DNA of 64,000 bases from Fibrobacter sp. UWR3 (GCF_900143055.1 NZ_FRCW01000005.1:186001-250000), one strand, 5' to 3'; counted from the stretch's first letter, positions 1,990 through 52,091 are shown. Program-made: numbers and translations. Notes: a model not told the origin generated them from the sequence alone.

Positions 1990-3282
1990 TTACCAGAGGT
2001 ACAGGCCGAGCGAAAGCGAGAACTGGTGGCTCATGAAGCTCGCATCTATATCTATGGAAGTATCGACGTATTCTCCCAGGTCGTAATCGTAATAGCCCGA
2101 GCTCGACGATTCGGTAAAGTAGCCGAACTGCATCATGTACTTGAATCGCGCGATGAGGGCGAACGATATCCCGCCAAGGCGCTTGGGCTTGGTCGCAAAC
2201 AGGCGCACATCCGCATTGACACCCAGCATCAACACCGTCGAAATATCGGCATCCGACCACATAAAATTGTAATTGCCCACACCCACAAAAGGTTCCGCCT
2301 TCAGCCACCTGGAATCAAAGACGGTATACCCGAGCGTAAGGCCCACAGTCTCGTCCTCGCCGCCACCCGCAACATAAACATGCGATTCGCCCACAGGCTT
2401 ATTTATAAGTCCATAACTGAGTAACCCGTTCAGGGATATACGGCCAAACTGGAGACTAATTTCACCGATAAAGCTAGAACCCATCTCAGAGTGGAAATAA
2501 TCCGTGGCATCGCCCGTCATGAACCCGAGCCACTGGCCCACAAACACGCCCAGGCCGCCCGTATAGTACTTGTGCTTGAACGGATCCCTGTAGAAATCGC
2601 GGTAAGGCTGCATAATCTTTTCAACAAACGGGATTGTCTGTTCCTTAAGGATTCTGGAGTACGTGGACTGCGGATACTTGCCCACAAAGTCACGGGCACA
2701 CGTCAGGAAATGTTCCACGTTCGTGGTATCGTACAGCGTTGTAACCGTAAACGCCACGCCGTAAACCGTGACCGGAACCTTATTGATTATAAGCTCCGAG
2801 TAAAGCAGGGTGCGGTACAGGTCCTTGTATTCATCGGAAAGGCTTTCCGAGGGAACGACGCGCGCATGGAGCGAATCCGCCTTGGAGGAATCGAACGGAG
2901 AGAGGTTCCTGTACAGGTAGCGCGACAGCGGGTCATCCTCGCTAGCCCGGCTCTGCCAGTTTGGCTTGAAAGCCGAATCAAGAATGGTGCGCCTCATATC
3001 CGCATAGAGTTCAATACCCTGTTCGTACCTGCCCGTCTCCATGTCGGCAAGGTACTCCTCGAAACGCGTCAGTGGCGCGCCTTCTTCCACATTCGTCTTG
3101 AGGTAGTCCAGCGCCTGCCCCGCTCGGGCCGTATCGCCCGATTCCAGCGAAGTCTTGAGCACGTCGCGCGCACGCAGGAAAAGTTCCTTCTTGGAAGGCT
3201 TCGGCGAGGAATCCTGTGCCATAGGCACAGAAAAACCGAGCAACAGGAACGCAGCGAAAAGAAATGTTGCAATCCTTACCAT
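1990..3282 (-). CDS. Exported helical/beta-barrel paralog A
   Basis: 430 residues. A signal peptide (MVRIATFLFAAFLLLGFSVPMAQ) is followed by an alpha-helical region to about residue 225 that looks like TPR-type repeats (RARDVLKTSLESGDTARAG). The C-terminal part is rich in Gly/aromatic strands (YYTGGLGVFVGQWLG, TLGYTVFDSRWLKAEPF) and ends in LGLYLW, an outer-membrane-type terminal strand. It closely resembles the 6005 protein, e.g. the shared LSRYLYRNLSPFDSSKADSL-type block, and more loosely the 3276 protein. It starts inside the 3' end of the 3276 gene (ATGGTAA overlap), so the two are translationally coupled. Function unknown; no database family is recognised. Confidence 0.75.
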   Translation of the reverse strand: MVRIATFLFAAFLLLGFSVPMAQDSSPKPSKKELFLRARDVLKTSLESGDTARAGQALDYLKTNVEEGAPLTRFEEYLADMETGRYEQGIELYADMRRTILDSAFKPNWQSRASEDDPLSRYLYRNLSPFDSSKADSLHARVVPSESLSDEYKDLYRTLLYSELIINKVPVTVYGVAFTVTTLYDTTNVEHFLTCARDFVGKYPQSTYSRILKEQTIPFVEKIMQPYRDFYRDPFKHKYYTGGLGVFVGQWLGFMTGDATDYFHSEMGSSFIGEISLQFGRISLNGLLSYGLINKPVGESHVYVAGGGEDETVGLTLGYTVFDSRWLKAEPFVGVGNYNFMWSDADISTVLMLGVNADVRLFATKPKRLGGISFALIARFKYMMQFGYFTESSSSGYYDYDLGEYVDTSIDIDASFMSHQFSLSLGLYLW

Positions 3283-7388: not shown

Positions 7389-8801
7389 CTAGCAGCCGAG
7401 TTTGGCGGACAGGTAAGCCTCGAGTTCATCGATCTTCACCAGTTCCTGCTTCATGGAGTCACGTTCGCGAACCGTCACGTAGCCCAGCTTTGCCGGATCG
7501 GATTCACCGTCGCCCACCGTGTCGAAGTCCACGGTCACGCAGAACGGCGTGCCGAGTTCGTCCTGACGGCGGTAGCGCTTACCGATGGACTGCGTTTCGT
7601 CGTATTCCACGTTCCAGCGGTTCAGGAGCTTCTGGTAGAGTTCTTCGGCCTTGGCCTTCACCTGGCCCTTCTTCACGAGCGGGAGAACGGCAACCTTCAC
7701 CGGAGCAATCTTCGGGTCGAAGTGGAGCACGGTACGTTCGTCATTTTCGAGCTTTTCAACGTCGTAGGCGTCGCAAAGGAGCACCAACAGCAGGCGTTCC
7801 ACACCGAGGGACGGTTCCACCACGTACGGGATGTAGCGCTTGTTCTGCACCGGGTCGATGTATTCCTGCTTGACCTTGGATTCGTTCTGGTGCTGCGTCA
7901 AGTCGTAGTTCGTGCGGCTTGCGATACCCCAGAGTTCGCCCCAGCCGAACGGGAATTCGTATTCGATGTCGGTGGTACCGTTACTGTAGTGAGAAAGTTC
8001 TTCCTTGGCATGTTCGCGGAGGCGGAGCTTTTCCTTGTTCACGCCGAGGTCGTTCACGAGCCAGTCGAAGCAGTACTTGCGCCAGAAGTTGTACCATTCC
8101 AGTTCGGTGCCCGGTTCGCAGAAGAATTCGAGTTCCATCTGTTCGAATTCGCGGGTACGGAAGATAAAGTTACCCGGAGTGATTTCGTTACGGAAGCTCT
8201 TACCGATCTGGCCCACACCGAACGGGATGCGCGGGCGGACGTTGTCGACAATGTTCTTGAAGTCCACGAAGATACCCTGGGCGGTTTCCGGACGCAGGTA
8301 AACCTTGTTGCCTTCGCCTTCGATGACGCCGATTTCGGTCTGGAACATCAGGTTGAATGCGCGGGGCTTGGTCCAGTCGGTCTTGCCGCAGGTCGGGCAT
8401 TCAATCTTGTTGTCCATCATCATCTGGTGGACTTCGTCAAAGTTCTTGCCGGCGCAGCAGCCTTCGCCGAGTTTGTCTTCCAAAAGTTGGTCGGCACGGA
8501 AACGTTCGTGGCAAGCGAGGCAGTCGACCAGCGGGTCAGAGAAGTTGCCCACGTGGCCAGAGGCCTTCCAGACGCGGGGGTTCAAGAGAATAGAGCTGTC
8601 GAGACCGAGCACATCCTGGCGGCTGGTCACGAACTTCTTCCACCAGAGGTTCTTGATGTTGCGCTTCAGTTCCACGCCATACGGACCGTAGTCCCAAGTG
8701 TTGGCGAGGCCGTCGTAAATTTCGGAGCCGGGGAAAATGAAACCGCGGCGCTTGCAGAGGGAGATGATGTCCTTGAGGGCATCCTGAACTTTCTTTGCCA
8801 T
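7389..8801 (-). CDS. glyQS: Glycyl-tRNA synthetase, single-chain type
   Basis: 470 residues, the length of the homodimeric (archaeal/eukaryotic-like) glycyl-tRNA synthetase rather than the two-subunit bacterial form. It charges tRNA-Gly in the cytoplasm. Class II signatures are visible: motif 1 region (GPYGVELKRNIKNLWW), motif 2 (FRNEITPGNFIFRTREFEQM), and motif 3 near the end of the catalytic core (PSLGVERLLLVLL). The Cys-rich insert has CLAC and later CPTCGKTDW. An anticodon-binding domain occupies about 375-470 (VAVLPLVKKGQVKAKAEELY). A heptanucleotide repeat sits against its -10 box. It appears to be a single-gene unit. Confidence 0.96.
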   Translation of the reverse strand: MAKKVQDALKDIISLCKRRGFIFPGSEIYDGLANTWDYGPYGVELKRNIKNLWWKKFVTSRQDVLGLDSSILLNPRVWKASGHVGNFSDPLVDCLACHERFRADQLLEDKLGEGCCAGKNFDEVHQMMMDNKIECPTCGKTDWTKPRAFNLMFQTEIGVIEGEGNKVYLRPETAQGIFVDFKNIVDNVRPRIPFGVGQIGKSFRNEITPGNFIFRTREFEQMELEFFCEPGTELEWYNFWRKYCFDWLVNDLGVNKEKLRLREHAKEELSHYSNGTTDIEYEFPFGWGELWGIASRTNYDLTQHQNESKVKQEYIDPVQNKRYIPYVVEPSLGVERLLLVLLCDAYDVEKLENDERTVLHFDPKIAPVKVAVLPLVKKGQVKAKAEELYQKLLNRWNVEYDETQSIGKRYRRQDELGTPFCVTVDFDTVGDGESDPAKLGYVTVRERDSMKQELVKIDELEAYLSAKLGC

Positions 8802-39428: not shown

Positions 39429-41645
39429 ATGGATTGGAACGATTTCACGAGCCTTTCTGCAGAAGACATGCAGGCTATCTGGGACTTCAAGACGAAGGAC
39501 CCGTTCTCTATCTTGGGTATCCACCCGCTCGAGACGGACAAGGGTATCAAGACGGTCATCCGCACGTACCAACCGCAGGCCGCCTACATCCGCGGTGAAT
39601 CCTGCGACGGCGAAGTGGAATTCGACTTCATGAAGCTCGGCGACACCGGGTTCTTCGAGGCCATCCTCGACATGGACTACGAGCCGTTCTTCTACAACCT
39701 GATTATCAAGCAGGGCGACGGCATCGAGTACACGCTCACCGACCCGTACGCCTTCCAGCCCGTACTTACCGAATTCGACCGCCACCTGATTTCGACCGGC
39801 ACGCACTACGAACTCTACCGCAAGCTGGGCGCGAACCTCGTGGAGCACCAGGGATTCAAGGGCGTGCAGTTCGCCGTGTGGGCCCCGAACGCACGCGCTG
39901 TCGCCGTCGTCGGCAACTTCAACAGCTGGGATGGCCGCCGCCACCAGATGCGCATGCTCGGCAGTTCCGGCATTTGGGAAATATTCATCCCGAACCTCGG
40001 CGAAAACGAACTGTACCGCTTCGAAATCCACGGCGCGGACGGAAACCTTCACGTAAAGATTGACCCGCTCGCAAAACTTGCGGAAGTCCGCCCGGCAACA
40101 GCCTCCATCACGACCCACCTCGACGGCTACGAATGGGGCGACGAACTCTACATGAAAACTCACTGGGCCACCAAGGTTTTCGGAAGCCCCATGAACATCT
40201 ACGAGGTGCACGCCGGTTCCTGGAGGCGCGACCCCGCGAACCCCGACCGCTTCCTCAACTGGGACGAACTTTCCGAACGCCTCATCCCCTACCTGAAGGA
40301 GATGGGCTACACGCACGTGGAATTCCTGCCGCTCGCGGAACACCCGCTCGATGAATCTTGGGGCTACCAGGTGACCGGGTACTACTCCCCCACGAGCCGC
40401 TACGGTACGCCCGACCAGTTCCGCCACTTTGTGGACCTTTGCCACCAGAACGAAATCGGCGTGATTCTCGACTGGGTGCCGGCGCACTTCCCGAAGGATG
40501 CACACGCGCTCGGCCGCTTCGACGGCACCGCCTGCTACGAGCACGCCGATCCGCGCCAGGGCGAACATCCGCACTGGGGCACCTACATCTTCAACCTGGG
40601 CCGCAACGAAGTCAAGAACTTCCTTATCGCAAATGCGATGTACTGGCTCAAGGAATTCCACTGCGACGGCCTGCGCGTAGACGCCGTAGCATCGATGCTC
40701 TACCTCGACTACGGCAAGGGCCCGGGCGAATGGGTGCCGAACAAGGACGGCGGCAACATCAACTACGATACCATCGAGTTCCTGAAGCACCTGAACAGCA
40801 TCATGGGCCGCTTGACCCCGCACGCCATCCTGATTGCCGAAGAATCCACGAGCTTCCCGAGTATCACGCGCCCGCCGGAGCAGGGCGGCCTCGGATTCCA
40901 CTACAAGTGGAACATGGGCTGGATGAATGACTTCCTGAGTTACATCGAGCACGAACCTATCCACCGCAAGTACCACCACAACCAGCTGACCTTCAGCATG
41001 ATGTACGCCTACAGCGAGAACTTCATCCAGGTGTTCAGCCACGACGAGGTGGTGCACGGCAAGGGCTCCATGCTCCGCAAGATGCCGGGCGACAACTGGC
41101 AGCAGTTCGCGAACCTCCGCCTCACCTATGCCTTCCAGTACGCGCACCCGGGCAAAAAACTCAACTTCATGGGCAACGAGTTCGGGCAGTGGCGCGAATG
41201 GAACGAGAAGCAGTCGCTTGACTGGCACCTCGTAAGCTGGGACAGCCACGGAAAGCTGCTGCAGATGATGAAGACGCTCAACCACCTGTACAAGGAAAAC
41301 GCCCCCTTCTGGGAAATCGACCACTACCACACCGGTTTCGAGTGGATCTGGTGCGACGATGCCGACAATTCCATCGTGAGTTTCGTGCGCAAGGACGACC
41401 ACGGGAACCAGATTCTGTGCGTGTTCAACTTCACGCCGGTCGTGCGCCGCGACTACCGTCTGGGTGCCCCCTCGCGCGGTGCATGGAAGGAAATCTTCAA
41501 CACAGACGCGAGCATGTTCGGCGGCAGTAACGTCGGAAACTTCGGTGAAGTCTGGACGGACGATATCCCGTGGCAGAACCGCCAGTGGAGCCTGAACATT
41601 CAGCTCCCGCCGCTCGGCGCGCTGTACTTCAGGCTGGAGCGCTAA
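39429..41645 (+). CDS. glgB: 1,4-alpha-glucan branching enzyme
   Basis: 738 residues from the ATG at 39429, which has AAAGGAG seven bases upstream; the longer frame is leader. It creates alpha-1,6 branches in glycogen. CBM48 domain about 130-215 (QFAVWAPNARAVAVVGNFNS), then the GH13 barrel: nucleophile in DGLRVDAVASM (D418), acid/base in LIAEESTSFP (E471), FSHDEVVHGKGSM, and a C-terminal beta domain ending GALYFRLER. Two damaged copies of this 3' end lie downstream at 44566 and 46741. The stop abuts the convergent 41646 gene with no gap. Confidence 0.97.
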   Translation: MDWNDFTSLSAEDMQAIWDFKTKDPFSILGIHPLETDKGIKTVIRTYQPQAAYIRGESCDGEVEFDFMKLGDTGFFEAILDMDYEPFFYNLIIKQGDGIEYTLTDPYAFQPVLTEFDRHLISTGTHYELYRKLGANLVEHQGFKGVQFAVWAPNARAVAVVGNFNSWDGRRHQMRMLGSSGIWEIFIPNLGENELYRFEIHGADGNLHVKIDPLAKLAEVRPATASITTHLDGYEWGDELYMKTHWATKVFGSPMNIYEVHAGSWRRDPANPDRFLNWDELSERLIPYLKEMGYTHVEFLPLAEHPLDESWGYQVTGYYSPTSRYGTPDQFRHFVDLCHQNEIGVILDWVPAHFPKDAHALGRFDGTACYEHADPRQGEHPHWGTYIFNLGRNEVKNFLIANAMYWLKEFHCDGLRVDAVASMLYLDYGKGPGEWVPNKDGGNINYDTIEFLKHLNSIMGRLTPHAILIAEESTSFPSITRPPEQGGLGFHYKWNMGWMNDFLSYIEHEPIHRKYHHNQLTFSMMYAYSENFIQVFSHDEVVHGKGSMLRKMPGDNWQQFANLRLTYAFQYAHPGKKLNFMGNEFGQWREWNEKQSLDWHLVSWDSHGKLLQMMKTLNHLYKENAPFWEIDHYHTGFEWIWCDDADNSIVSFVRKDDHGNQILCVFNFTPVVRRDYRLGAPSRGAWKEIFNTDASMFGGSNVGNFGEVWTDDIPWQNRQWSLNIQLPPLGALYFRLER

Positions 41646-43274
41646 CTACCACCAGCATTCTAAATTCATATACCGTAGTTGCCTCTTTCTCGGTTTCTCG
41701 CTCTTTACCTGTCCCGGATTCATCGAGACAAGACGCCACGTTAATCCAAGGGAAACGTAGGGCGAGTAACCGTCAGCTTGAGCAATATCGGATACATCCA
41801 TATTGTTAAGCCCGAATTTGAGCCGCAAGCCAAAGCGGCTATGTATGCGTGAACCTTCAACGGGCTTGCCTATGTAATTGGGGAACAGCAGGTCGAAGTA
41901 CATTCCCACTCCGTAGCGGAAGTACGGTTCGTGCGAATAATCGTCAGCGTCTCCATAGTTATACTCAAACGTGGACACCCCGATAGATGCGAATGCAGCA
42001 GACTCCACGTACCCAGTTTTCAGCCACAAGAATCCGAACTGTACATTTGCAGAAAAATCGTTAGCCGAGCAGGAATCGCATTCGGTATCAAGCACGACAA
42101 TTGACGAATTCATGCCAAATATCCACCGATTCATGAGAACGTTCGTCTCGAAATTCATATACAGTGAAGGGCTTACCCCAGAAAAATCTCCCCACAGGAA
42201 GGGACGTCCGAAATTTGTTGCAAAATCGAAAGCGAATTTATCTTCGGAAACGTACAAGCGTTCTGGAGGCTTATTTGCGGCAATTCGCTTAACCGTCTCG
42301 CAGACGCGCTCACGATTTTTTCCCGACAGGCCCTTCACCGATGCACAATACGAACCGTCTTCCACGAAATACTTTAACAAGGCGTTCAGGCGCGGGTCCA
42401 GCCCTTCCCCGTACTGAATGTTGTTGTAGCCGTCACGATAATACATTACGGAATCTTCATTTAGAATAAATTCATAATCCCGGTTCAAGACCTTAAGCAG
42501 AACGCGGGATCGGAGCGATAGGTCCGCCGAATCGGCCAAGGCGAGCGCGGCAGAATATTCACCCGCATTCACTAAGTCAAGCAGGCGTTTGCGCACGTCT
42601 ATCGCATAATGCGGTTTAATATCGTACTTCACGCGGAATGGAAAGTACCGGACATTTTCAAGAGACGAATCCAGCGACGGCACCGGATCGGAGAATCCGT
42701 CCAAAAAGAAGATGTATTTATTCTGCGAATTAGTTTGTAGCGAATGCTCCGGGAAAGGAATAAGCGCGAGCCGCTGGACAAGCGACCAGCCCGTAGAATC
42801 CCCGGAAATATCCGTCCCTACATACGCAAAAGTGAATATGGACTTTTTCGCTTCCCCGCTCGGAGCGACCCACGCACCGGTAGCCCTGTCATAAACCTTC
42901 TCGACAAGCAAGGTGTAATTCACCAGGTAAAAGCCTGTATCCCATCCCGTCAGGTTACGCAGTTCAAACGTTTTGCGGAATATTTCGGGAGCGCGGGAAA
43001 GGTCCTTTTCCTGTCGGTTCCTTTTCGTTTCTGCCCATCCGTGAAAGAAATTGAACAGGCGGGCGCTATCGCCTTCAAGCGTATATTTTCCGAGTTCTTC
43101 TTCAGGAACGATACGCATTCCCGTAATCGTCCCGTAAAATGCGGCAGGAGCTGTTTCAAGTTTCTTGACAACAGATTCCTGCTTGACAATGTCCCGGATA
43201 ATCACGAAGTCGGCATTGGCAAAGGCAAGCGAAACTACAGCAAGCAAGAATAAGAAAAGGCGCTTCAGAATCAT
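41646..43274 (-). CDS. Exported barrel-like protein D
   Basis: 542 residues with a signal peptide (about 1-19, ending SLAFA). The N-terminal 200 residues look like mixed soluble domains (LRNLTGWDTGFYLVNYTLLV); about 225-345 is helical; about 350-510 has barrel-like strands (VSPSLYMNFETNVLMNRWIF, FGFLWLKTGYVESAAFASIG, RFGLRLKFGLNNM) and the tail is charged. General architecture matches the cluster at 2-7.3 kb. It overlaps the next upstream gene by four bases. Low GC and plain codon use relative to flanking glgB fit acquired DNA. Function unknown. Confidence 0.7.
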   Translation of the reverse strand: MILKRLFLFLLAVVSLAFANADFVIIRDIVKQESVVKKLETAPAAFYGTITGMRIVPEEELGKYTLEGDSARLFNFFHGWAETKRNRQEKDLSRAPEIFRKTFELRNLTGWDTGFYLVNYTLLVEKVYDRATGAWVAPSGEAKKSIFTFAYVGTDISGDSTGWSLVQRLALIPFPEHSLQTNSQNKYIFFLDGFSDPVPSLDSSLENVRYFPFRVKYDIKPHYAIDVRKRLLDLVNAGEYSAALALADSADLSLRSRVLLKVLNRDYEFILNEDSVMYYRDGYNNIQYGEGLDPRLNALLKYFVEDGSYCASVKGLSGKNRERVCETVKRIAANKPPERLYVSEDKFAFDFATNFGRPFLWGDFSGVSPSLYMNFETNVLMNRWIFGMNSSIVVLDTECDSCSANDFSANVQFGFLWLKTGYVESAAFASIGVSTFEYNYGDADDYSHEPYFRYGVGMYFDLLFPNYIGKPVEGSRIHSRFGLRLKFGLNNMDVSDIAQADGYSPYVSLGLTWRLVSMNPGQVKSEKPRKRQLRYMNLECWW

Positions 43275-44518
43275 TTCGCACCCTCCCTATCGCTATAATC
43301 GAATTCAAAGTTTTTTTGCTTGTATTCAAACAGAGCCAATTCCAGCGAGGCGTACAGAGTGTAGCCCGAAGCATCGACGACATCGTCTGCCCACATGTTC
43401 TTGATACCACCCCTGATTCTCAGTCCCACGCGGACCTTCTTGTAATCCATAAAGAAAACATCCACCATCGCACCAGCGCCAAAAGCCGGGAAAACCTGCG
43501 AGGAAAGGCTATTGTCATTATTGTCCGAATCGACATACTTCAAAGAACTGTAGCCCACTCCGCCCGAAACAAACGCCCTCAAGTTTACGTATTTCAAATC
43601 GAGGAAAGTATAGCCCAGATTGAAGTCCGCCGCAAGTGTTTGAAGTTCCAGGCTATCCTGTTCCCTGCATTCTCCCGTCTGAATGCCCAAATAAAAACCA
43701 TAGGCAAGGCGGTTTCTGAACAAATCTAATTCCATACCGCCACCAAAGTTTATCCGGACCTTATCTGAAATATCCCCGAGCGGCACAGCAACCGGCGCCA
43801 CGAAAGTCGCTCCAAAATAGTTTTTCAAGTCATAGCCAAACTTAGTCCAGAACCGCTCGACAAGATATTCCAGCTGTTCGCTCTTCTTTAACTGCGGCTT
43901 GTATTTTTCGATAAGTGCGGACACCTGTTCTCGACTCTCGAAAAGTGAAAGCAGCAATATGCGGACAAAGGCGCGGTCAGCTTCATCTGCGATTCGCCCG
44001 AGTTTTTTCTCGAGTTCGCCCGAAGTCCTCTGCGTCGCGATTTTTTCTAGGGCGGTTGCCCCGAATACTCCATCAACATACTTAGACGGATTGTACTTCT
44101 TCACGGAATCCAGATTGCACAGGAACTCGTAATCCCCGAGAAAATATTTTACGAGAAACCTGTCCCGAAATACAATCTTCTTATACGTCGCCGTACTTTC
44201 GAACTCCCGGACTGTATCCCAAATCGCCTTGAAGTCATCCATGCGGTCTTCGGCCAAGACAGAAGTAAGCGCCTTCTGCAAATATTCCGCAGAATCGTTT
44301 TCCCGCTGGATTTTCCTTTGCAATTCTGCGATGGCAGAATCCGAGTACGTTGCGCCAGGAGAACCGTGCCCGCGGGAATACGTCAGCTCCACGTTGTCTT
44401 GCACGAACAGGAACATCACCGAGTCGCGCGAGAGACCTTCTGCTGCATGCGAATAGCACAAGAACAGCGCTACAAGAGCACAAAACAAGAAGGCTTTTCT
44501 TTTCTGACAAACGCGCAT
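43271..44518 (-). CDS. Exported helical/barrel-like protein E
   Basis: 415 residues from the ATG at 44518, which opens a signal peptide (MRVCQKRKAFLFCALVALFL). Helical to about 250 (AFVRILLLSLFESREQVSAL), then strands: INFGGGMELDLFRNRLAYGF, LGYTFLDLKYVNLRAFVSGG, GAMVDVFFMDYKKVRVGL. The FLDLKYVNLRAFVSGGVGYS block sits where the 1990/3276/6005 proteins have xDSRFLKxxPFIGxG, so it is probably a remote member of the same family. It overlaps gene 41646 (ATGA). Confidence 0.7.
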   Translation of the reverse strand: MRVCQKRKAFLFCALVALFLCYSHAAEGLSRDSVMFLFVQDNVELTYSRGHGSPGATYSDSAIAELQRKIQRENDSAEYLQKALTSVLAEDRMDDFKAIWDTVREFESTATYKKIVFRDRFLVKYFLGDYEFLCNLDSVKKYNPSKYVDGVFGATALEKIATQRTSGELEKKLGRIADEADRAFVRILLLSLFESREQVSALIEKYKPQLKKSEQLEYLVERFWTKFGYDLKNYFGATFVAPVAVPLGDISDKVRINFGGGMELDLFRNRLAYGFYLGIQTGECREQDSLELQTLAADFNLGYTFLDLKYVNLRAFVSGGVGYSSLKYVDSDNNDNSLSSQVFPAFGAGAMVDVFFMDYKKVRVGLRIRGGIKNMWADDVVDASGYTLYASLELALFEYKQKNFEFDYSDREGAK

Positions 44519-44565
44519 AAGGGAAATATACAAAAACCTCAAGAAGCCACACAAAAAGCCCCGCC

Positions 44566-44640
44566 CGCGGAGCCTGGAAAGAAATCTTCAACACGGACGC
44601 GAGCATGTTCGGCGCACTGTACTTCAGGCTGGAAAGGTAA
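44566..44640 (+). pseudogene. glgB 3'-end remnant 1 with internal deletion
   Basis: Translates as RGAWKEIFNTDASMFG followed directly by ALYFRLER and a stop: the last residues of GlgB with 31 codons missing between. The join falls at a shared GGCG. All differences from the resident glgB in this stretch are synonymous (e.g. GCA/GCC, AAG/AAA, ACA/ACG, GAG CGC/GAA AGG). Confidence 0.9.
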
Positions 44641-44658
44641 CCAAAGCCTAAGACAAAA

Positions 44659-45363
44659 CTACGGCAAGTCGAAATGCTCTAGCGGCAATTCAGAAGCATC
44701 CAACTCCAGGGGCTCATAGCCCTTGAAATCTTTGACATTTCTGTGATACGTGATGGTATAGACCGGCATATCCAGCGGGAATATCATCTCGTTAATAAAA
44801 GTCCCATGCGCAGGCGTACCGACGCACCTTTCCTCGAACTCCGCATGAATTTTCTTCGATTCCTCCGGCGTCAGTTTCCGGTGAACGACAGCTGGGTCCG
44901 GTGTTTCCAAAAGCGAATCGCCGGAATAATAGATGTGCAATTCCTTGCCAATCACCTTCGTGAAAACAGCCCTGAAGAAGGCTTCGTCAACAAGGTAGTC
45001 TATCTTATTGACATCGTGCCAGCCGTCTATTCTCCAGACGCATTTTGCATCGAAAGTTTCCTCCTTCGAGGGTTCAATCGACACGCCGATATCTCCGCAC
45101 AAATTCATTGGCTGAGTACGATTCTTTGCGTTCGTCCCGTCGATAGCGCCGACAAGCAGGTCCTTGTTTCCGTAGCCATCCCGCAGGTACAGGTTCTCGT
45201 TTGTACGTACCACCACGCCGAGTTCCCAGTAGAACTGCAATTTTACGTTTTCCGATGTCAGCAAGCCCCGAGCCGGCGTAAAGCCGTCACGGATATTCGT
45301 GCGCGGCAACAGCACATAGCACGAGGCAAGCGAGAGCGTTATCAACAGCAGGAGGATTCTCAT
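44659..45363 (-). CDS. Putative lipoprotein
   Basis: 234 residues from the second in-frame ATG (45363), which overlaps the previous stop as ATGA; the ATG two codons earlier is equally possible. Lipobox LASC at about residue 15. The mature part is a beta-rich soluble domain with few cysteines (NLCGDIGVSIEPSKEETFDA, KCVWRIDGWHDVNKIDYLVD). No family recognised. Last gene of a three-gene leftward unit between the two glgB remnants. Confidence 0.7.
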   Translation of the reverse strand: MRILLLLITLSLASCYVLLPRTNIRDGFTPARGLLTSENVKLQFYWELGVVVRTNENLYLRDGYGNKDLLVGAIDGTNAKNRTQPMNLCGDIGVSIEPSKEETFDAKCVWRIDGWHDVNKIDYLVDEAFFRAVFTKVIGKELHIYYSGDSLLETPDPAVVHRKLTPEESKKIHAEFEERCVGTPAHGTFINEMIFPLDMPVYTITYHRNVKDFKGYEPLELDASELPLEHFDLP

Positions 45364-46004
45364 TCGCATCTTGCGGCCCTCCTGTTGAAAAGCAATGCAT
45401 CCAGCTTTTTCAGGCCCTGCTCAACAGCATCCAGCGGGTACGTCAACTTTTGCGAGTTGATCCGGAAATCCCTGAAGGCAAAATACTGCACCTGCTCCCC
45501 CTCCTTCTTGTAGCCGAGATAGAGAGACATCTGCAGGGTATTGACCTCATAATGGAAAGCTTTTGCGGAATCCGCCTTCGTGGGGATTATTACCGGGAAT
45601 TCTGCCAGCGGCAAACCCTCAATTTCATTATACGATGCAGAATCAAGCGTAAAGCGCTCCATACATTTTTCAAAATCACTGTAACCCTTCAGGCCTTCGC
45701 GCTCCCGGAGGTACGCCTCGGGGTTACGCCAGCGCGATTCCTTCTGGCTGGGCTTCTGGTACAGCACAGCCTCCCCGCCTTTCGCGACAACAATCAGCCG
45801 GAGAGAATCTCCCCTCTCGCGGAAAATATAAAGCCCGTCAGCATTCCAGTCGATTTTTGCCTGCGAAAAAATTCCGTCTAGGGCGTTCTTCCTGAAGTTC
45901 ACGCTAACCGGGGCATCCTTCTGGCCCTCCGGCGCAAAGAACCACGAAGTCTCGGCGCAGGCAAGCCCTGCCATCAGGAACATTATAGCCACAAGCCTGC
46001 GCAT
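45360..46004 (-). CDS. Exported hypothetical protein
   Basis: 214 residues from the ATG at 46004, one base after the previous stop, opening a signal peptide (MRRLVAIMFLMAGLACA). The Cys near its end could make it a lipoprotein (GLAC). The rest is mixed alpha/beta (DGLYIFRERGDSLRLIVVAK, FHYEVNTLQMSLYLGYKKEG). No family recognised. Middle gene of the three-gene block. Confidence 0.68.
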   Translation of the reverse strand: MRRLVAIMFLMAGLACAETSWFFAPEGQKDAPVSVNFRKNALDGIFSQAKIDWNADGLYIFRERGDSLRLIVVAKGGEAVLYQKPSQKESRWRNPEAYLREREGLKGYSDFEKCMERFTLDSASYNEIEGLPLAEFPVIIPTKADSAKAFHYEVNTLQMSLYLGYKKEGEQVQYFAFRDFRINSQKLTYPLDAVEQGLKKLDALLFNRRAARCE

Positions 46005-46005
46005 A

Positions 46006-46719
46006 TTAAAATCCCTCAAGCGAACATTCGTATCCATTACACACAACCTTGCACACGCCCGAAATTCTTTCCAAGGTTGCCTTTACGCCCTTGTACAGCG
46101 TAAAATAATCCTTGATGAGTTCCTTCGGTTCGAACCACCGTTCAAGATAATACAGGTGCAATACATCCAGGAACGTGCGATTCTGATTTTCGTCTACGCG
46201 TACAATGTGGAGTCCGCCTTCTTCGGTACCGCCCCAGCCATCCACAATAGACATGCTGTTCCTTTCGAAGAACGTTTTCATCAGGGCTACGAGTTCCTCG
46301 GGAAATTCAGTCTTCTTCTTGCAGGCCTTTTGCAGTTGCGGGCGCATCTTTTCAATCGATTTTTCCCTAGCCTGGAGAGTATCCGCCTTCCACTGGTCCA
46401 TATAATATCCCGAAACTAGCGCCTGCATGAAACTCACCTCCGCTTCATTCCCGGACAACGGCAAATACGCAAAGAAGGTTCCGCGCACCTTGTCATCGTA
46501 CATGTAATTTCCGAGGACAATGTAATACCCCGGTTTCGACATGCCTATCGGCTCGCCAAAGTACAATTCATGCTTTCCGGAAGGGACCTTCCCAAACCCG
46601 GTCGAGGGCGCAAACCTGCAAATGCACTTGCCCGTGCCAAAGCAGGAACAGAAACCTTCGGCACAGAGCACAAGGAGCAACAGGCAGAACACCCTTCTGC
46701 AATTTATACAAACTTGCAT
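46006..46719 (-). CDS. Putative lipoprotein
   Basis: 237 residues from the ATG at 46719, chosen for the hydrophobic export signal that follows (MQVCINCRRVFCLLLLVLCA) with a possible lipobox FCSC; the longer frame reads through glgB remnant 2. The mature part contains FGEPIGMSKPGYYIVLGNYM and a helical segment rich in Lys (LQKACKKKTEFPEELVALMK). No family recognised. First gene of the block 46719-44659. Confidence 0.65.
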   Translation of the reverse strand: MQVCINCRRVFCLLLLVLCAEGFCSCFGTGKCICRFAPSTGFGKVPSGKHELYFGEPIGMSKPGYYIVLGNYMYDDKVRGTFFAYLPLSGNEAEVSFMQALVSGYYMDQWKADTLQAREKSIEKMRPQLQKACKKKTEFPEELVALMKTFFERNSMSIVDGWGGTEEGGLHIVRVDENQNRTFLDVLHLYYLERWFEPKELIKDYFTLYKGVKATLERISGVCKVVCNGYECSLEGF

Positions 46720-46740
46720 AGCCCCAATATACAAAAAGCC

Positions 46741-46779
46741 CCGCCGCTCGGCGCCGTTTATTCCAGGCAGGAAAGACAA
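46741..46779 (+). pseudogene. glgB 3'-end remnant 2
   Basis: Translates as PPLGAVYSRQERQ against PPLGALYFRLER-stop in GlgB: the first twelve bases are identical, then scattered changes including loss of the stop. It is preceded by ACAAAAAGCCCCGCC, the same 15 bases that precede remnant 1. Confidence 0.8.
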
Positions 46780-46811
46780 TCTTGCACAAGATTCTCGAAA
46801 AGCATTAGAAA

Positions 46812-46838
46812 CGGCAGGCACAAACGCCTGCCTTCTTT
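46812..46838. terminator. Hairpin at the nhaC 3' end
   Basis: GGCAGGC (46813-46819) with GCCTGCC (46826-46832); T-rich on the plus strand, weaker on the minus strand. Confidence 0.6.
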
Positions 46839-46862: not shown

Positions 46863-48215
46863 TTAAACTTCCAAGTTCTTGTTCTTTCGCGGAGAAATCG
46901 CGATGAACACGAGCACGCTTATAAGCAACAAGAACGGATAGAACATGTAGGGAATCAAGTCGAACGCACTCACGCGAGCATCCGGCAAAGCAGAAGCAAT
47001 CGCAGCAAGAGCCACCAGCATCTGCGCACCGTAAGGCAAAACGCCCTGCACCACGCAACTGAAAATATCCAAAAGCGAAGCCGTCTTCTTGGGAGAGATG
47101 CGGTATTCGTCGCCCATCTGCTTTGCAATCGGGCCCGCCATCACAATCGCCACCGTATTGTTCGCCGTTGCGATATCCAAAGCACTCACCAAAAGACCGA
47201 CACCCACTTGTCCGCTGCGATGCCCCTTGAACACCTTGTGGATAAAGTCGAGCAGAGCCGCAAACCCGCCATGAATGCGGATAAGCCCGCACAAGGCGCT
47301 CACCAGCACCGCCACGAGAATCGTCTCGTACATGCCCGAAATACCTTTCCCGATATTCTGCAACAAGCCAATCATATCGAGCGGTCCGAAAGCAACCATA
47401 ATGATTGAAGCAGCGACAATTCCCACCAAAAGCACAGTGAACACGTTAATCCCCGTGAGAGCCAACGCCAGCACCAAAACGTAGGGAATCAGTTGCACCA
47501 AGCTGTAAGAATTCTCGGCAACCGCACGAGCCTCCGTCGCGAACGAAATCGCCGTGATAATCGCCACCGCAAGAAGTGCCGCCGGTAGCGCAATAATAAA
47601 GTTCACATGGAACTTGTCCTTCATCTTGCAGCCCTGCGTCGAAGTCGCCGCAATCGTCGTATCCGAAATAAAACTCAAATTGTCGCCGAACATAGCGCCG
47701 CCAATCACCGTCGCCACGCAAAACGGAACGCCAAAGCCCGCCATCTGGGCCACCTCTACCGCAATCGGAGAAACCACAGCAATCGTCCCGACCGAAGTTC
47801 CCATCGCCGTAGAGACGAACGCCGCCACCACGAACAGCACCACCACCGCGAACTGCGCCGGGATAAAGTCCAGGAGCAAGTAAGCCGCAGCCGACGCACT
47901 CGAGCGCCCCAAAATCCCCGCGAAAATGCCTGCGCAAAGGAAGATGAGAATCATCAAGAAAATATTGCGGTCGCCCAGCGCCCCCGCCATGATGTTCATC
48001 TTCTTGTCGAAATTCAGCTTGCGGTTCTGCATGCACGCCACAAAAATCGCAATCAAGAACGCCGCCACGATAGGAATGTTGTAGAACCCCATAGAAATAT
48101 GGAGAACGTATTCAAACGTAATGCCAAGCCCCAGATAAAGCACCAGGAACACGGCGACCGGCAAAAGGGCAATCGGGTTACCCTTGATTTTATCTTCAAT
48201 GCGTTCGTTCTGCAT
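46863..48215 (-). CDS. NhaC-type Na+/H+ antiporter
   Basis: 450 residues from the ATG at 48215 (MQNERIEDKIKGNPIALLPV); the longer frame adds a charged, unlikely leader. About 11-12 membrane helices. The family signature GDNLSFISDTTIAATSTQGC (about 190-210) and ALDIATANNTVAIVMAGPIA near 360 identify the NhaC/ArsB-type ion-transporter family. It probably exports Na+ in exchange for protons, useful in the rumen; NhaC relatives can also exchange malate/lactate, so cargo is not certain. Its stop is 84 bases from glgB remnant 2. Confidence 0.9.
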   Translation of the reverse strand: MQNERIEDKIKGNPIALLPVAVFLVLYLGLGITFEYVLHISMGFYNIPIVAAFLIAIFVACMQNRKLNFDKKMNIMAGALGDRNIFLMILIFLCAGIFAGILGRSSASAAAYLLLDFIPAQFAVVVLFVVAAFVSTAMGTSVGTIAVVSPIAVEVAQMAGFGVPFCVATVIGGAMFGDNLSFISDTTIAATSTQGCKMKDKFHVNFIIALPAALLAVAIITAISFATEARAVAENSYSLVQLIPYVLVLALALTGINVFTVLLVGIVAASIIMVAFGPLDMIGLLQNIGKGISGMYETILVAVLVSALCGLIRIHGGFAALLDFIHKVFKGHRSGQVGVGLLVSALDIATANNTVAIVMAGPIAKQMGDEYRISPKKTASLLDIFSCVVQGVLPYGAQMLVALAAIASALPDARVSAFDLIPYMFYPFLLLISVLVFIAISPRKNKNLEV

Positions 48216-48231: not shown

Positions 48232-48801
48232 TTACTTCTTCGGCTTAAACAAAGGCGGGGTCGTATAATGTTTTGGCCTGTATTTTTTCGGGACATCGTA
48301 GCCGAGTTTTAAAAGCATCCGGACATAATCTTCGTTCTTCATGCGCATCCTGGACTTTTTCAGGATGTTCAAGGTTCCGTATTTCTTTTCGTTCCGCAAC
48401 ACATCCAGAAGCCCATAAATAGAGATGCAAGAATAAGATAACGCACATGCAAAGGCATAAGCAAACTTATCTTGGGATGAAGGGAATCGACAAAAGAACA
48501 CATAACTCAACACCATAACAGCCAACAAAACAAGCAAAATAATCACGCGGAATTTCCAATCGCAGCGAGCTATAAACCGTTTATCCAAGGCGGGCTCCAG
48601 CCGGCCGTATATAAGCTGTTCTCCCTTGCAATGCGGGCAAACAATAATGGGGCTCCCGAACATCAATGAATTTTTATCGTATGGATACGGGTGGTCTTCG
48701 CCACAAAGACGACAATGGAACTCGCCCACCTGCTCGTCGACGACACATTTCACTTCAAGTAAATCGCGGTTACTCCACTGGGATTCTTTCTTTTGACGCA
48801 T
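48232..48801 (-). CDS. Zinc-ribbon membrane protein, hypothetical
   Basis: 189 residues. Four cysteines as CRLC (about 30) and CPHC (about 55) form a probable zinc ribbon before two membrane helices (about 84-103 VIILLVLLAVMVLSYVFFC and 112-132). The C-terminus is basic (KKSRMRMKNEDYVRMLLKLG). Topology puts the ribbon in the cytoplasm. It lies 16 bases upstream of the NhaC start and may be co-transcribed with it. Function unknown. Confidence 0.72.
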   Translation of the reverse strand: MRQKKESQWSNRDLLEVKCVVDEQVGEFHCRLCGEDHPYPYDKNSLMFGSPIIVCPHCKGEQLIYGRLEPALDKRFIARCDWKFRVIILLVLLAVMVLSYVFFCRFPSSQDKFAYAFACALSYSCISIYGLLDVLRNEKKYGTLNILKKSRMRMKNEDYVRMLLKLGYDVPKKYRPKHYTTPPLFKPKK

Positions 48802-48857: not shown

Positions 48858-48882
48858 GCCCCGCCGGGATTTCCGGCGAGGC
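48858..48882 (-). terminator. Terminator of the GH51 gene
   Basis: Minus strand GCCTCGCCGG ... CCGGCGGGGC with one mismatch, followed by TCTTTTTTT. Confidence 0.85.
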
Positions 48883-48905: not shown

Positions 48906-51900
48906 TTACTCAATCGTGATGAGCGTGATGGTGCGCTTGCCGACCTTGATCGGCTTGCTCACGTCAACACCCTTCTTGGCCTTCTTGGACGGATCGTTTG
49001 CCCAGCCTTCCTTGAGCTTTTCGGAGCTCTTGTCAAGCGTCTGGACAGTGGCTTTGCCCTTGAAGCCCGGAATGTCGAGCTTGAGTTCGTAGTCGCTGTA
49101 CGGGCTCTTGTTGATCACGAGGAGGCTCTTCTTCTTGCCGTTTTCGGTGTAGTAGGTCGTGATGAGCGATTCCTTGTCACCGGTAATCACGGTCTTGAGG
49201 AGCTTGCCGCGGAGAGCGTCAGAAGCCATCTGGAATGCCCAGTAGCTCGGACGCGGGCAGTTCATGCAGTCTTCTGCAGAACGGGTCAGGTAACCGTAGT
49301 CACCGCCTTCCGGAGTGATGTCGTTGTGGATATCCCAGTACTGTGCGTTGTCCACGTTTTCGGTGGCAAGCATAGCGAGGTAGTCAGCAACGAACAGGCC
49401 GTTTTCGAGAGCGATGGTCTGCGGACCCGGGTTGAAGTCCACGGAGTTCCATTCAGTGAGCCAGAGTTCGAACTTCTTGTCCTTGTTGAAGTGCTTGGTC
49501 CACTTGTCCACGAGCTTGTGCAGGCGGCTGTAGATAGGCACGAGGTCCTGCGGGGCGCTGAGCATGGCGAAGTCGTTTTCTTCACCGAAGTGCTGCGGGT
49601 AGTGGTGAACGATGATACCATCGGCAATGTCGCCGGTTTCCTTGAGCACGTTGTCGTTCCACTGACCGTCGAGAACGCCGAGCACCGCCACCTTGATGGT
49701 CGGGTCAACCTTCTTCATGGCCTCGATGAACTTGCGGGCGCGCTTACCATAGATGGTACCGCCGTCTTTACCGTACTTTTCGTAGTACGGATGCCAGTTA
49801 CCGTAGACTTCGTTACCGATTTCCCAGTACTTGATGCCGGCCTTCTTGTCGATGTTGGTGTGCTTCACCCAGGCAGCGGCTTCCTGTTCGGTGCCGGAAC
49901 CGAAGTTGACAGTGAACATGGCGTTGGAGCCGGTCTTCTTGAGCCATTCGAGGAATTCGTCGGTATCGACCATCCAGTCGTGGTTGTCAAGGATTTCCTT
50001 CCAGTGGTCGTCATCGGCACGGAGACCACCCGGGTAACGGATGATGCCGTGGTTGATGCGCTTCACGAAGTCGCGGGTCTGGACCTTGAACTTCGGATTG
50101 TCAAGCATGTCGCCATCCCAGAGGGCAGCGTTGATACCGAAGAGGCCACCCGAGATGTTCGGGTTGATAACGTCGCCGGTACCCTTCACGTCGACCTTCA
50201 CGACAGCCGGACGAGCGGCAGCCTTGACTTCGCGCTGGTTGGTGAGCTTGATGTTATCGATTTCGAAGCTACCATTAGAGCCTTCTCCACCCGGTTTGAA
50301 GTCGAGAGAAACGACGTTCTTGAGGTCGAACACGCCGTTTTCCTTGGCGTTAGGCGGCTGGTAGTACGGGAACTTGCTGAAGGTGCGGAACGGCACGATC
50401 ACAGTGGTACGGCCACGCGGCACACCGGTGTTGGACACGAAGAGTTCGTTGCCGGCGTCACCAATCTGGACCGTGATGGACTGCCATGCACGTTCAGAGT
50501 AGACATCGAACATAATGCCCCAGTGCTTGGTCCAGTCGCGGAGCTTGGCGTCGTGAGCAGCAGTGTTCTTGGTGAAGTCGAGAACGAAGTCCACCCAGTC
50601 AGACATTTCGAAGTGTTTGATGAAGAGGGAGTTGCCATCGAGCTTGGAGCTCTTGTACGGCATCTCGATTTCGGCCTTGGACTTCGGGCCGAAAGACGGT
50701 TCCCACTTGTCCTTGGCAAACTTGCCTTCGAAGTCAGAGATAACCAGGTCAGCTTCCTTAGACTTCCAGTTGTCCCACTTGATATCCGGGTCAACCCAGT
50801 CGATGGTTTCGGTGAAGGTAATCTGGTCGACGAAGATGGTCACAGGAGCCGGCTTGCCCGGTTCGCCCTGGTTTTCACCCTTGCCCACGGAGAAGCGGAT
50901 TTCCTGAATCTTGTTCCACTGCACGTCCTTGGCGACTTCGGCCTGCTTGTTAGCATCCCAAGCCTTACCCTTGTCGACGAACTTCTTGAGAGGAATCTTC
51001 ACGAGCTTCCAATCGGTGCCGACCTTGGCGCCAGCAATCCAGTCGTTCAGGCTGACCTTGGTCTGGCTCTTGATGTCGTTGCCCTGGTTGTCGAGGATAC
51101 CGACGTACACCTTTTCGCCGCCGAGCTTACCCTTGATCCAGAAGTAGAGACCGCCCTTGTTGCGGACCTTGGAAAGGTCGATGTACTTGCCTTCACCGAG
51201 CGAGTAGGTCACGCCGGACCAGTCGTTGTTATCGATGTAGAGGGCGAGCACGTTCTTGTTGCCAGCAGTCTTGGACTGAGCTTCACGCTGGGCAGAAAGG
51301 CCACCGTAGCTGTAGCTGAAGCCCTTGAGGCCGTCGGAGTAGAACGTACCGTTAGCCACCGGCTTGACCTTGCCGTCAAGCTTTTCGGGGTTCTTCGGGC
51401 CGTCGATGACGTCGTTGTTTTCATCCCAGTAGACAATCTGCTTCTTCGGGGCAGCCTTCTTGTTGCCCTTCACGATTTCGATGTTGTCCACCCAGATTTC
51501 GAAATCCTTCGCGCCGCTCTTGTCGATGGAGAAGCGGATTTCAGCAATCTTGTCCCAGTCGATACGGGCCGGGAATTCGGACTTGCGGGTGTTATCCCAG
51601 TAGAGACCACGGTCCGGGAAGTCCACGAGAGGAATGGAAACCTTCTTCCAGTCCGTCGTAACGGCACCGCCCTCGATGTACTTGTTCATCGGGAGCACGA
51701 CCTGCGTCTTCTTGCCGTCGCTAACTTCTTCGTCAAGGAGGCCGACCTTCACGGCTTCGCCGCCGTTCTTGCCCTTGATCATGAATTCGACCTTGGAATC
51801 AAGCATGTACTTGTTCAGGTCGAAGAACTCGTTGTACAAGCAGATGGATGCACCGGAGTATTCCTTCGGGTCCAGCTTGATGTTCAGGGCGGCCTTGGAC

Positions 51901-52091
51901 TTGTAACCGCCGTCCTTCGTAATGGTCACACCCTTGCTAGTGCCACCGTAGGAGTAGTCGAAACCACCCGGACGATACTGCTCGTCGAAGAACTTGTAGA
52001 CGACCGTCTTCGGCTTCTTCGGCTGAGCCATTGCAGCCACGCTGACACCCAGGAGGATGACGGACGCGACTTTCAATGTTTGCTTAATCAT
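48906..52091 (-). CDS. Secreted GH51 glycosidase with three CBM-like modules (Cel51A type)
   Basis: 1061 residues, signal peptide about 1-22. Two related beta-sandwich modules (about 30-212 and 240-440) share FDYSYGG/FSYSYGG and DWKxVxIPLxxF blocks; a third (about 460-655) carries ISDFEGKFAKDKWEPSFG. They look like CBM11/CBM30-type cellulose binders. The GH51 domain starts near 690; acid/base E759 in YWEIGNEVYG, nucleophile E880 in LWLTEWNS. Size and layout match the roughly 118-kDa cellulose-binding endoglucanase Cel51A described in F. succinogenes; arabinofuranosidase is the alternative for GH51. Extracellular, plant cell-wall breakdown. Confidence 0.9.
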   Translation of the reverse strand: MIKQTLKVASVILLGVSVAAMAQPKKPKTVVYKFFDEQYRPGGFDYSYGGTSKGVTITKDGGYKSKAALNIKLDPKEYSGASICLYNEFFDLNKYMLDSKVEFMIKGKNGGEAVKVGLLDEEVSDGKKTQVVLPMNKYIEGGAVTTDWKKVSIPLVDFPDRGLYWDNTRKSEFPARIDWDKIAEIRFSIDKSGAKDFEIWVDNIEIVKGNKKAAPKKQIVYWDENNDVIDGPKNPEKLDGKVKPVANGTFYSDGLKGFSYSYGGLSAQREAQSKTAGNKNVLALYIDNNDWSGVTYSLGEGKYIDLSKVRNKGGLYFWIKGKLGGEKVYVGILDNQGNDIKSQTKVSLNDWIAGAKVGTDWKLVKIPLKKFVDKGKAWDANKQAEVAKDVQWNKIQEIRFSVGKGENQGEPGKPAPVTIFVDQITFTETIDWVDPDIKWDNWKSKEADLVISDFEGKFAKDKWEPSFGPKSKAEIEMPYKSSKLDGNSLFIKHFEMSDWVDFVLDFTKNTAAHDAKLRDWTKHWGIMFDVYSERAWQSITVQIGDAGNELFVSNTGVPRGRTTVIVPFRTFSKFPYYQPPNAKENGVFDLKNVVSLDFKPGGEGSNGSFEIDNIKLTNQREVKAAARPAVVKVDVKGTGDVINPNISGGLFGINAALWDGDMLDNPKFKVQTRDFVKRINHGIIRYPGGLRADDDHWKEILDNHDWMVDTDEFLEWLKKTGSNAMFTVNFGSGTEQEAAAWVKHTNIDKKAGIKYWEIGNEVYGNWHPYYEKYGKDGGTIYGKRARKFIEAMKKVDPTIKVAVLGVLDGQWNDNVLKETGDIADGIIVHHYPQHFGEENDFAMLSAPQDLVPIYSRLHKLVDKWTKHFNKDKKFELWLTEWNSVDFNPGPQTIALENGLFVADYLAMLATENVDNAQYWDIHNDITPEGGDYGYLTRSAEDCMNCPRPSYWAFQMASDALRGKLLKTVITGDKESLITTYYTENGKKKSLLVINKSPYSDYELKLDIPGFKGKATVQTLDKSSEKLKEGWANDPSKKAKKGVDVSKPIKVGKRTITLITIE

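Follow-up and report, generated by a model that had tools for sequence, protein, structure and literature searches.

Minimal mobile elements were defined in Neisseria by Saunders and Snyder (2002). In the excerpt of PMC3082526 that gives the definition, such an element comprises two conserved genes with lineage-specific whole-gene cassettes between them, needs no mobility genes, and is accompanied by signs of recombination in the flanking genes. For the effector-immunity arrays of the Vibrio cholerae T6SS, homology-facilitated illegitimate recombination has been proposed in a sequential displacement model, in which one end of the new DNA is anchored by homology and the other is joined illegitimately, so that older genes are displaced downstream and an old effector 3' end may stay behind (PMC5361080). 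Integrase-free hotspots of horizontal transfer, with no mobile-element genes and with recombination in a flanking conserved gene, have been reported statistically (Oliveira et al. 2017, PMC5635113). Finally, integrase-dependent genomic islands at gene 3' ends leave a displaced copy of the 3' end beyond the insert. How does the region downstream of glgB in Fibrobacter compare with these? It shares the features just named with each of them, and among known kinds it comes nearest to minimal mobile elements and homology-facilitated illegitimate recombination. Yet its alleles are stacked as well as exchanged, and seams between a terminator arm and a gene tail remain. Unlike in the Vibrio arrays, the anchor is a metabolic gene unrelated to the cargo, there is no effector-immunity logic, and the illegitimate end can be pinned down to a word of 7 bp inside a transcription terminator. 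Whereas the hotspots of Oliveira et al. are statistical, the seams here are individually resolved to the base, and in contrast to the islands there is neither a linked integrase nor a constant attachment site. What is new here is the seam resolved at a terminator, together with the record of displaced tails.

The window, that is the whole stretch of DNA analysed, covers 64,000 nucleotides of Fibrobacter sp. UWR3. Its interval downstream of glgB consists of three head-to-tail gene sets, AB, CDE and nhaC-DUF. Blocks 1 and 2 end in the outer arm of the predicted terminator of an arabinofuranosidase-like gene (arab), and blocks 2 and 3 start with a tail of glgB (R1 and R2). The features are as follows, in window coordinates.

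39429-41645, plus strand: glgB, intact, left flank of the hotspot; 87-99% amino acid identity in relatives
41429-41645, plus strand: 3' end of glgB, apparently of foreign lineage (mosaic); 32/217 differences to G075, closest to G076 and G061
41646-43274, minus strand: gene A, block 1; signal peptide by inspection; A/B family present at the locus in several species
43271-44518, minus strand: gene B, block 1; homologous to A
44551-44565, minus strand: outer arm of the predicted arab terminator, right end of block 1; overlaps the start of R1
44559-44640, plus strand: R1, displaced glgB tail with a 96-nt internal deletion; from blastn, tail profile and alignment
44659-45369, minus strand: gene C, block 2; lipoprotein-like start by inspection; 93-98% amino acid identity in G019, G045 and G049
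45360-46004, minus strand: gene D, block 2; 93-95% amino acid identity in the same three genomes
46006-46722, minus strand: gene E, block 2; 93-95% amino acid identity in the same three genomes
46731-46745, minus strand: outer arm of the predicted arab terminator, at the right-hand edge of block 2; in G045 and G019 the stretch runs on into the complete arab terminator
46740-46779, plus strand: R2, decayed glgB tail; from tail profile and alignment; common to G049, same joint in G045
46813-46832, no strand assigned: hairpin after R2, resembling an intrinsic terminator; fold z -5.4
46863-48215, minus strand: nhaC-type antiporter, block 3; start likely the ATG at 48215; E-R2-nhaC contiguous in G049
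48232-48801, minus strand: zinc-ribbon-like membrane protein (DUF), block 3; behind glgB in G049 too, homologue in G071
48858-48882, minus strand: predicted arab intrinsic terminator, intact; fold z -3.2
48906-52091, minus strand: arab, with CBM11/CBM30, right flank of the hotspot; from domains and comparison with relatives

The preliminary description of this DNA took nhaC as the far flank. This is not so: nhaC is cargo in the third block, and the far flank is arab. Pfam and NCBIfam gave no credible match for genes A-D and nothing near threshold for E. No relative of B was found among solved structures, nor of A or C in the viral contigs searched, and structure predictions were poor (mean pLDDT 38 for B and 39 for E).

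Is this arrangement fixed in the genus? glgB was recovered in 40 of 41 genomes in a first search and in 35 of 36 in a second one, and the region downstream of it was read in 54 Fibrobacter genomes, most of them draft genomes or bins, which gives 55 loci with the window. In 30 of these loci, the window included, arab faces glgB on the stretch examined. Twelve of the 30 intervals are empty, with 142-322 bp and no gene, while the other 18 are filled with 16 different gene sets and reach up to 12.4 kb. This is the layout of minimal mobile elements, compared here between species and not between strains. The closest relative, G075 (glgB 98.6% identical in amino acids), has a single 147-aa gene and lacks A-E and nhaC. 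An AB-type pair stands directly between glgB and arab in G012 and G015. G045 has the order B', glgB tail copy, C-D-E, arab. On contigs without glgB, the order is A-B-C-D-E-arab in G019 and B-like gene, C-D-E, R2, nhaC, arab in G049. Because the content differs in nearly every species, the five genes and both remnants are not a fixed arrangement of all relatives; block content varies while tails persist (in G045, G049 and G019), the point that an alignment of the glgB-nhaC interval was meant to test. The idea of a hotspot for surface-protein cassettes stands as far as the hotspot is concerned, but the interval is the convergent one between glgB and arab, and the cargo goes beyond the envelope: in relatives it includes A/B-family proteins, Fibrobacter-type lipoproteins, a type IIG restriction enzyme, a cytosine methylase and a transporter. 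Some species carry a core XerC/D-type gene within the interval.

Three single loci are worth recording. The 12.4-kb interval of G014 (L033) holds six A/B-family genes, a XerC/D-type gene and a lipoprotein-like gene. In G045 (L104, oriented 8282-8350), the promoter and the signal-peptide start of gene E also head B', so that this leader is present twice, once fused to a different protein. On the glgB contig of G049 (L124:3910-3990), the glgB block is followed by 27 codons left over from the arab 3' end, a mirror image of the glgB tails, with full arab and glgB on different contigs. A profile of the arab tail gave weak matches only against the other intervals.

Are the displaced tails real? Copies of the glgB tail had been claimed at 44566-44640 and 46741-46779; both are borne out, with slightly extended limits. 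The 5' part of R1 (44559-44614) is identical to glgB 41468-41523 at 50 of 56 aligned positions and its 3' part (44615-44640) to 41620-41645 at 22 of 26. The deletion between the two parts is edged by two TCGGCG repeats, as in the pattern left by slipped-strand deletion. With blastn R1 matches glgB at E = 4e-12. A glgB-tail profile built from relatives finds R1 at E = 2.4e-10, R2 at 0.009, the copy in G045 at 4e-6 and a weak one in G019 at 0.13, and the best E of its reversed-sequence controls is 1.8. R2 is short and decayed, 75% identical to the window's own glgB (30 of 40 positions against the last 40 nt, 41606-41645), and the best score among 20,000 random window positions was 22 of 40. It is confirmed despite its shortness because R2 also occurs in G049, and in G045 an intact tail stands at the same joint. 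Sequence comparison thus confirms R1 and R2 as genuine copies of the glgB 3' end. A chance resemblance or an assembly artefact might be suspected, as R2 alone is short and several relatives are metagenome bins, but the blastn, profile and random-position statistics argue against chance and separate assemblies agree on the E-R2-nhaC seam (G049) and on the joint (G045), which makes this explanation hardly credible. A further glgB tail remnant occurs in G019 (L042, oriented 3144-3180), 494-530 nt past glgB and behind a c19-type gene; its joint is a different one and is not at the arab terminator.

There is a further question of concern, what are the 15 bases that both remnants follow? The observation itself holds at both seams, and its reading as an insertion site does not. 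The 15-mer ACAAAAAGCCCCGCC occurs exactly twice in the 3.55-Mb genome, both times at the seams, even when one mismatch is allowed, and it was therefore rejected as a genome-wide motif. In G045 an identical stretch precedes gene E and continues as AAAAAGCCCCGCCGGGGATTCCGGCGAGGCGATTTT, the complete arab intrinsic terminator; the stretch at the end of block 2 continues in the same way in G019. Close variants precede arab in G075, G008, G063 and G023, and the intact terminator folds with z -3.5 in G045 and -3.2 in the window. Judged by these contexts, the 15-mer is the outer arm of the predicted arab intrinsic terminator and not an insertion signal. Each block therefore represents a whole glgB-to-arab allele, one stacked on the other.

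The joints can be placed more exactly. The terminator arm shares exactly two 7-bp words with the last 220 nt of glgB in G061, G075 and G042, CCCCGCC about 178 nt and CCCGCCG 40 nt before the glgB end, and the starts of R1 and R2 coincide exactly with these two words. Of the joints that the terminator arm and the glgB tail region could form, only 0.07% share at least 7 bp. We infer the terminator side of R1, because no donor of the AB block was found among the relatives' genomes searched. The seams themselves are well supported, and the molecular route is what we infer from them. In the literature searched we found no paper on microhomology at the terminators of convergent genes.

Could an integrase have done the same? 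Site-specific integration at the glgB 3' end, as in islands at tRNA genes, would leave just this order of gene, block and displaced tail. However, the joints vary (one lies 178 nt and another 40 nt before the end of glgB, and G019 has a third kind), the common motif belongs to the arab terminator, and a search of the window blocks turned up no dedicated integrase or transposase. The search for a recombinase that had been suggested for these blocks likewise found no dedicated one. Integrase-driven insertion is therefore very improbable. A XerC/D-type recombinase was considered as the dedicated agent and rejected; it is a core gene, located at C8 in the window's genome.

If DNA entered by homology on the other side, is there any trace of this in glgB? 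Compared with G075, the window's glgB has 79 differences in the first 2000 nt and 32 in the last 217 (Fisher 4e-9), so that the divergence rises from 3.9% to 14.7%, by a factor of nearly four. The closest matches to this end are in G076 and G061. The first part of R1 is identical to the glgB of G061, a near relative, at 56 of 56 positions, against 50 of 56 for the window's own gene. The intact glgB end thus looks foreign to its lineage, whereas R1 matches a close relative and is apparently the older tail, displaced. Similarly, the tail copy of G045 agrees with G061 and G012 at 37 of 40 positions and with its own glgB at 31. The mosaic signal is weakened and not pure, since in most genome pairs glgB varies more towards its end than elsewhere anyway, about 1.2- to 2.3-fold. 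On the other flank, the arab protein is 99% identical to that of G045 and G049 and 91% to that of G075; the gene stays about 97% identical to G045 and G049, with some patchiness, until about 52.1 kb, beyond which the sequence is closer to G075. This points to a lineage switch at about 52.1 kb. The mosaic glgB end and the arab switch fit the flank recombination of minimal mobile elements, with the general variability of the glgB end kept in mind, and 7-bp words at both joints with a mosaic glgB opposite are the junction features of homology-facilitated illegitimate recombination, in which one junction lies in homologous sequence and the other at a few bases shared by otherwise unrelated sequences. 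In the glgB of G076 (L122), the differences to G016, G022 and G074 are 2-3% in the first 1800 nt and 12-14% in the last 417 nt, which is strong indication of a recombinant 3' end and of a swap even stronger than in the window.

These results favour a scenario in which the convergent interval between glgB and arab is a gene-cassette hotspot without an integrase of its own, filled by homology-facilitated illegitimate recombination, probably after natural transformation. We regard this hotspot together with its full explanation as probable, with moderate confidence. The incoming DNA would consist of a glgB 3' end, a cassette and an arab terminator. Its left end would recombine homologously inside glgB, and at its right end microhomology would link the incoming arab terminator with the glgB tail already in place, so that the resident tail and cassette would be pushed downstream rather than replaced. 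Stacking would have happened at least twice, because R1 and R2 are different joints, and the leftover tails would decay afterwards. In the proposed order, CDE would first have adjoined glgB, R2 would mark its joining to the nhaC block, and AB would have come last with a new glgB end, because decay has gone less far in R1 than in R2 and AB is the block next to the intact glgB end. The successive insertions at the glgB 3' end that had been suggested are in line with the stacked alleles, the seams and the variable content. The uptake of DNA and the direction and order of events would follow from this reading. Homology-facilitated illegitimate recombination starts from incoming foreign DNA and depends on RecA. 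ComEC and DprA are present in 10 of 10 genomes tested, so DNA uptake is possible in these species.

Two other routes would lead to the same seams. In one of them, a copied or excised interval is closed to a circle at the shared words, arm joined to tail, and enters another genome by a single crossover in the glgB tail. It would give identical seams (glgB-X-arm, then tail-Y-arab), and in an E. coli test of illegitimate joining the products were mostly partial duplications from a circle and a single crossover (PMC3240628). But for R2 the tail on the circle would be only 40 nt, which is short for homologous recombination, and we judge this route unlikely, if a real competitor. In the other, one allele is duplicated in tandem through the shared words and one copy is then replaced by homologous recombination. 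The G045 locus, in which the leader of gene E stands before both B' and E, as expected of a copy that was overwritten after duplication, fits this, and the duplicated leader at this seam counts against the stacking of incoming alleles; it may reflect duplication or later recombination. However, the leader of B' resembles that of the window's E more than that of the E in G045 itself, and no genome with two copies of one block was seen in the window's group. Tandem duplication thus seems rather improbable to us.

Is the signature of stacked alleles limited to glgB? In a scan of about 1.25 Mb and 933 genes of the window's own genome, a 172-nt copy of the valS tail (90%) was found behind a PIN-domain-like gene and two lipoprotein-like genes. 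A second valS tail is present in 4 of 22 genomes (G000, G012, G016 and G042), as read from short loci, with N runs in G012 and the two pieces of G042 on separate contigs. The loci are as follows.

G000, C2:22297-27381: valS tail locus (L261, L286, L310)
G012, C44: valS tail locus (L306, L309)
G016, C29: valS tail locus (L307)
G042, C53 and C56: valS tail loci (L288, L308)

Such tail copies behind inserted blocks appear to be the same signature as at glgB. In a control for intergenic copies in the own genome, gene heads gave 5 matches from 2 genes and gene tails 12 matches from 10 genes; no statistical genome-wide excess is claimed, because many copies of heads and tails are weak or lie in paralogue contexts. 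Two other copies of gene ends were seen on G000:C2. On the reverse strand, a 29-nt copy of the end of a clpB-like gene (28/29) lies 60 bp downstream of the gene and surrounds a small palindromic repeat of a kind scattered in these genomes. At about 400466-408830 (L280), small secreted protein and lipoprotein genes stand in tandem, partly identical and with the common start (M)RRTLPIFCVALFLVACGDGG, and one gene end recurs there as an exact 79-nt copy.

It is possible, and we say so tentatively, that the genus gains genes in a general mode in which cassettes accompanied by a housekeeping gene's 3' end stack behind that gene, joined at one side through homology and at the other through microhomology of the facing gene's terminator with the resident 3' end. 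If this is true, terminators would be natural joining points. Why does this matter? The locus shows base by base how genes may accumulate at a fixed place without an integrase. The displaced tails would be scars from which the order of arrival could be read, with hints of the donor lineage, and therefore the workings of integrase-free hotspots would become testable in natural genomes. The valS cases make it seem worthwhile to look for the signature in other bacteria as well. The cargo itself, secreted proteins, lipoproteins, a restriction enzyme and a transporter, is of the kind that a fibre-degrading gut bacterium may swap.
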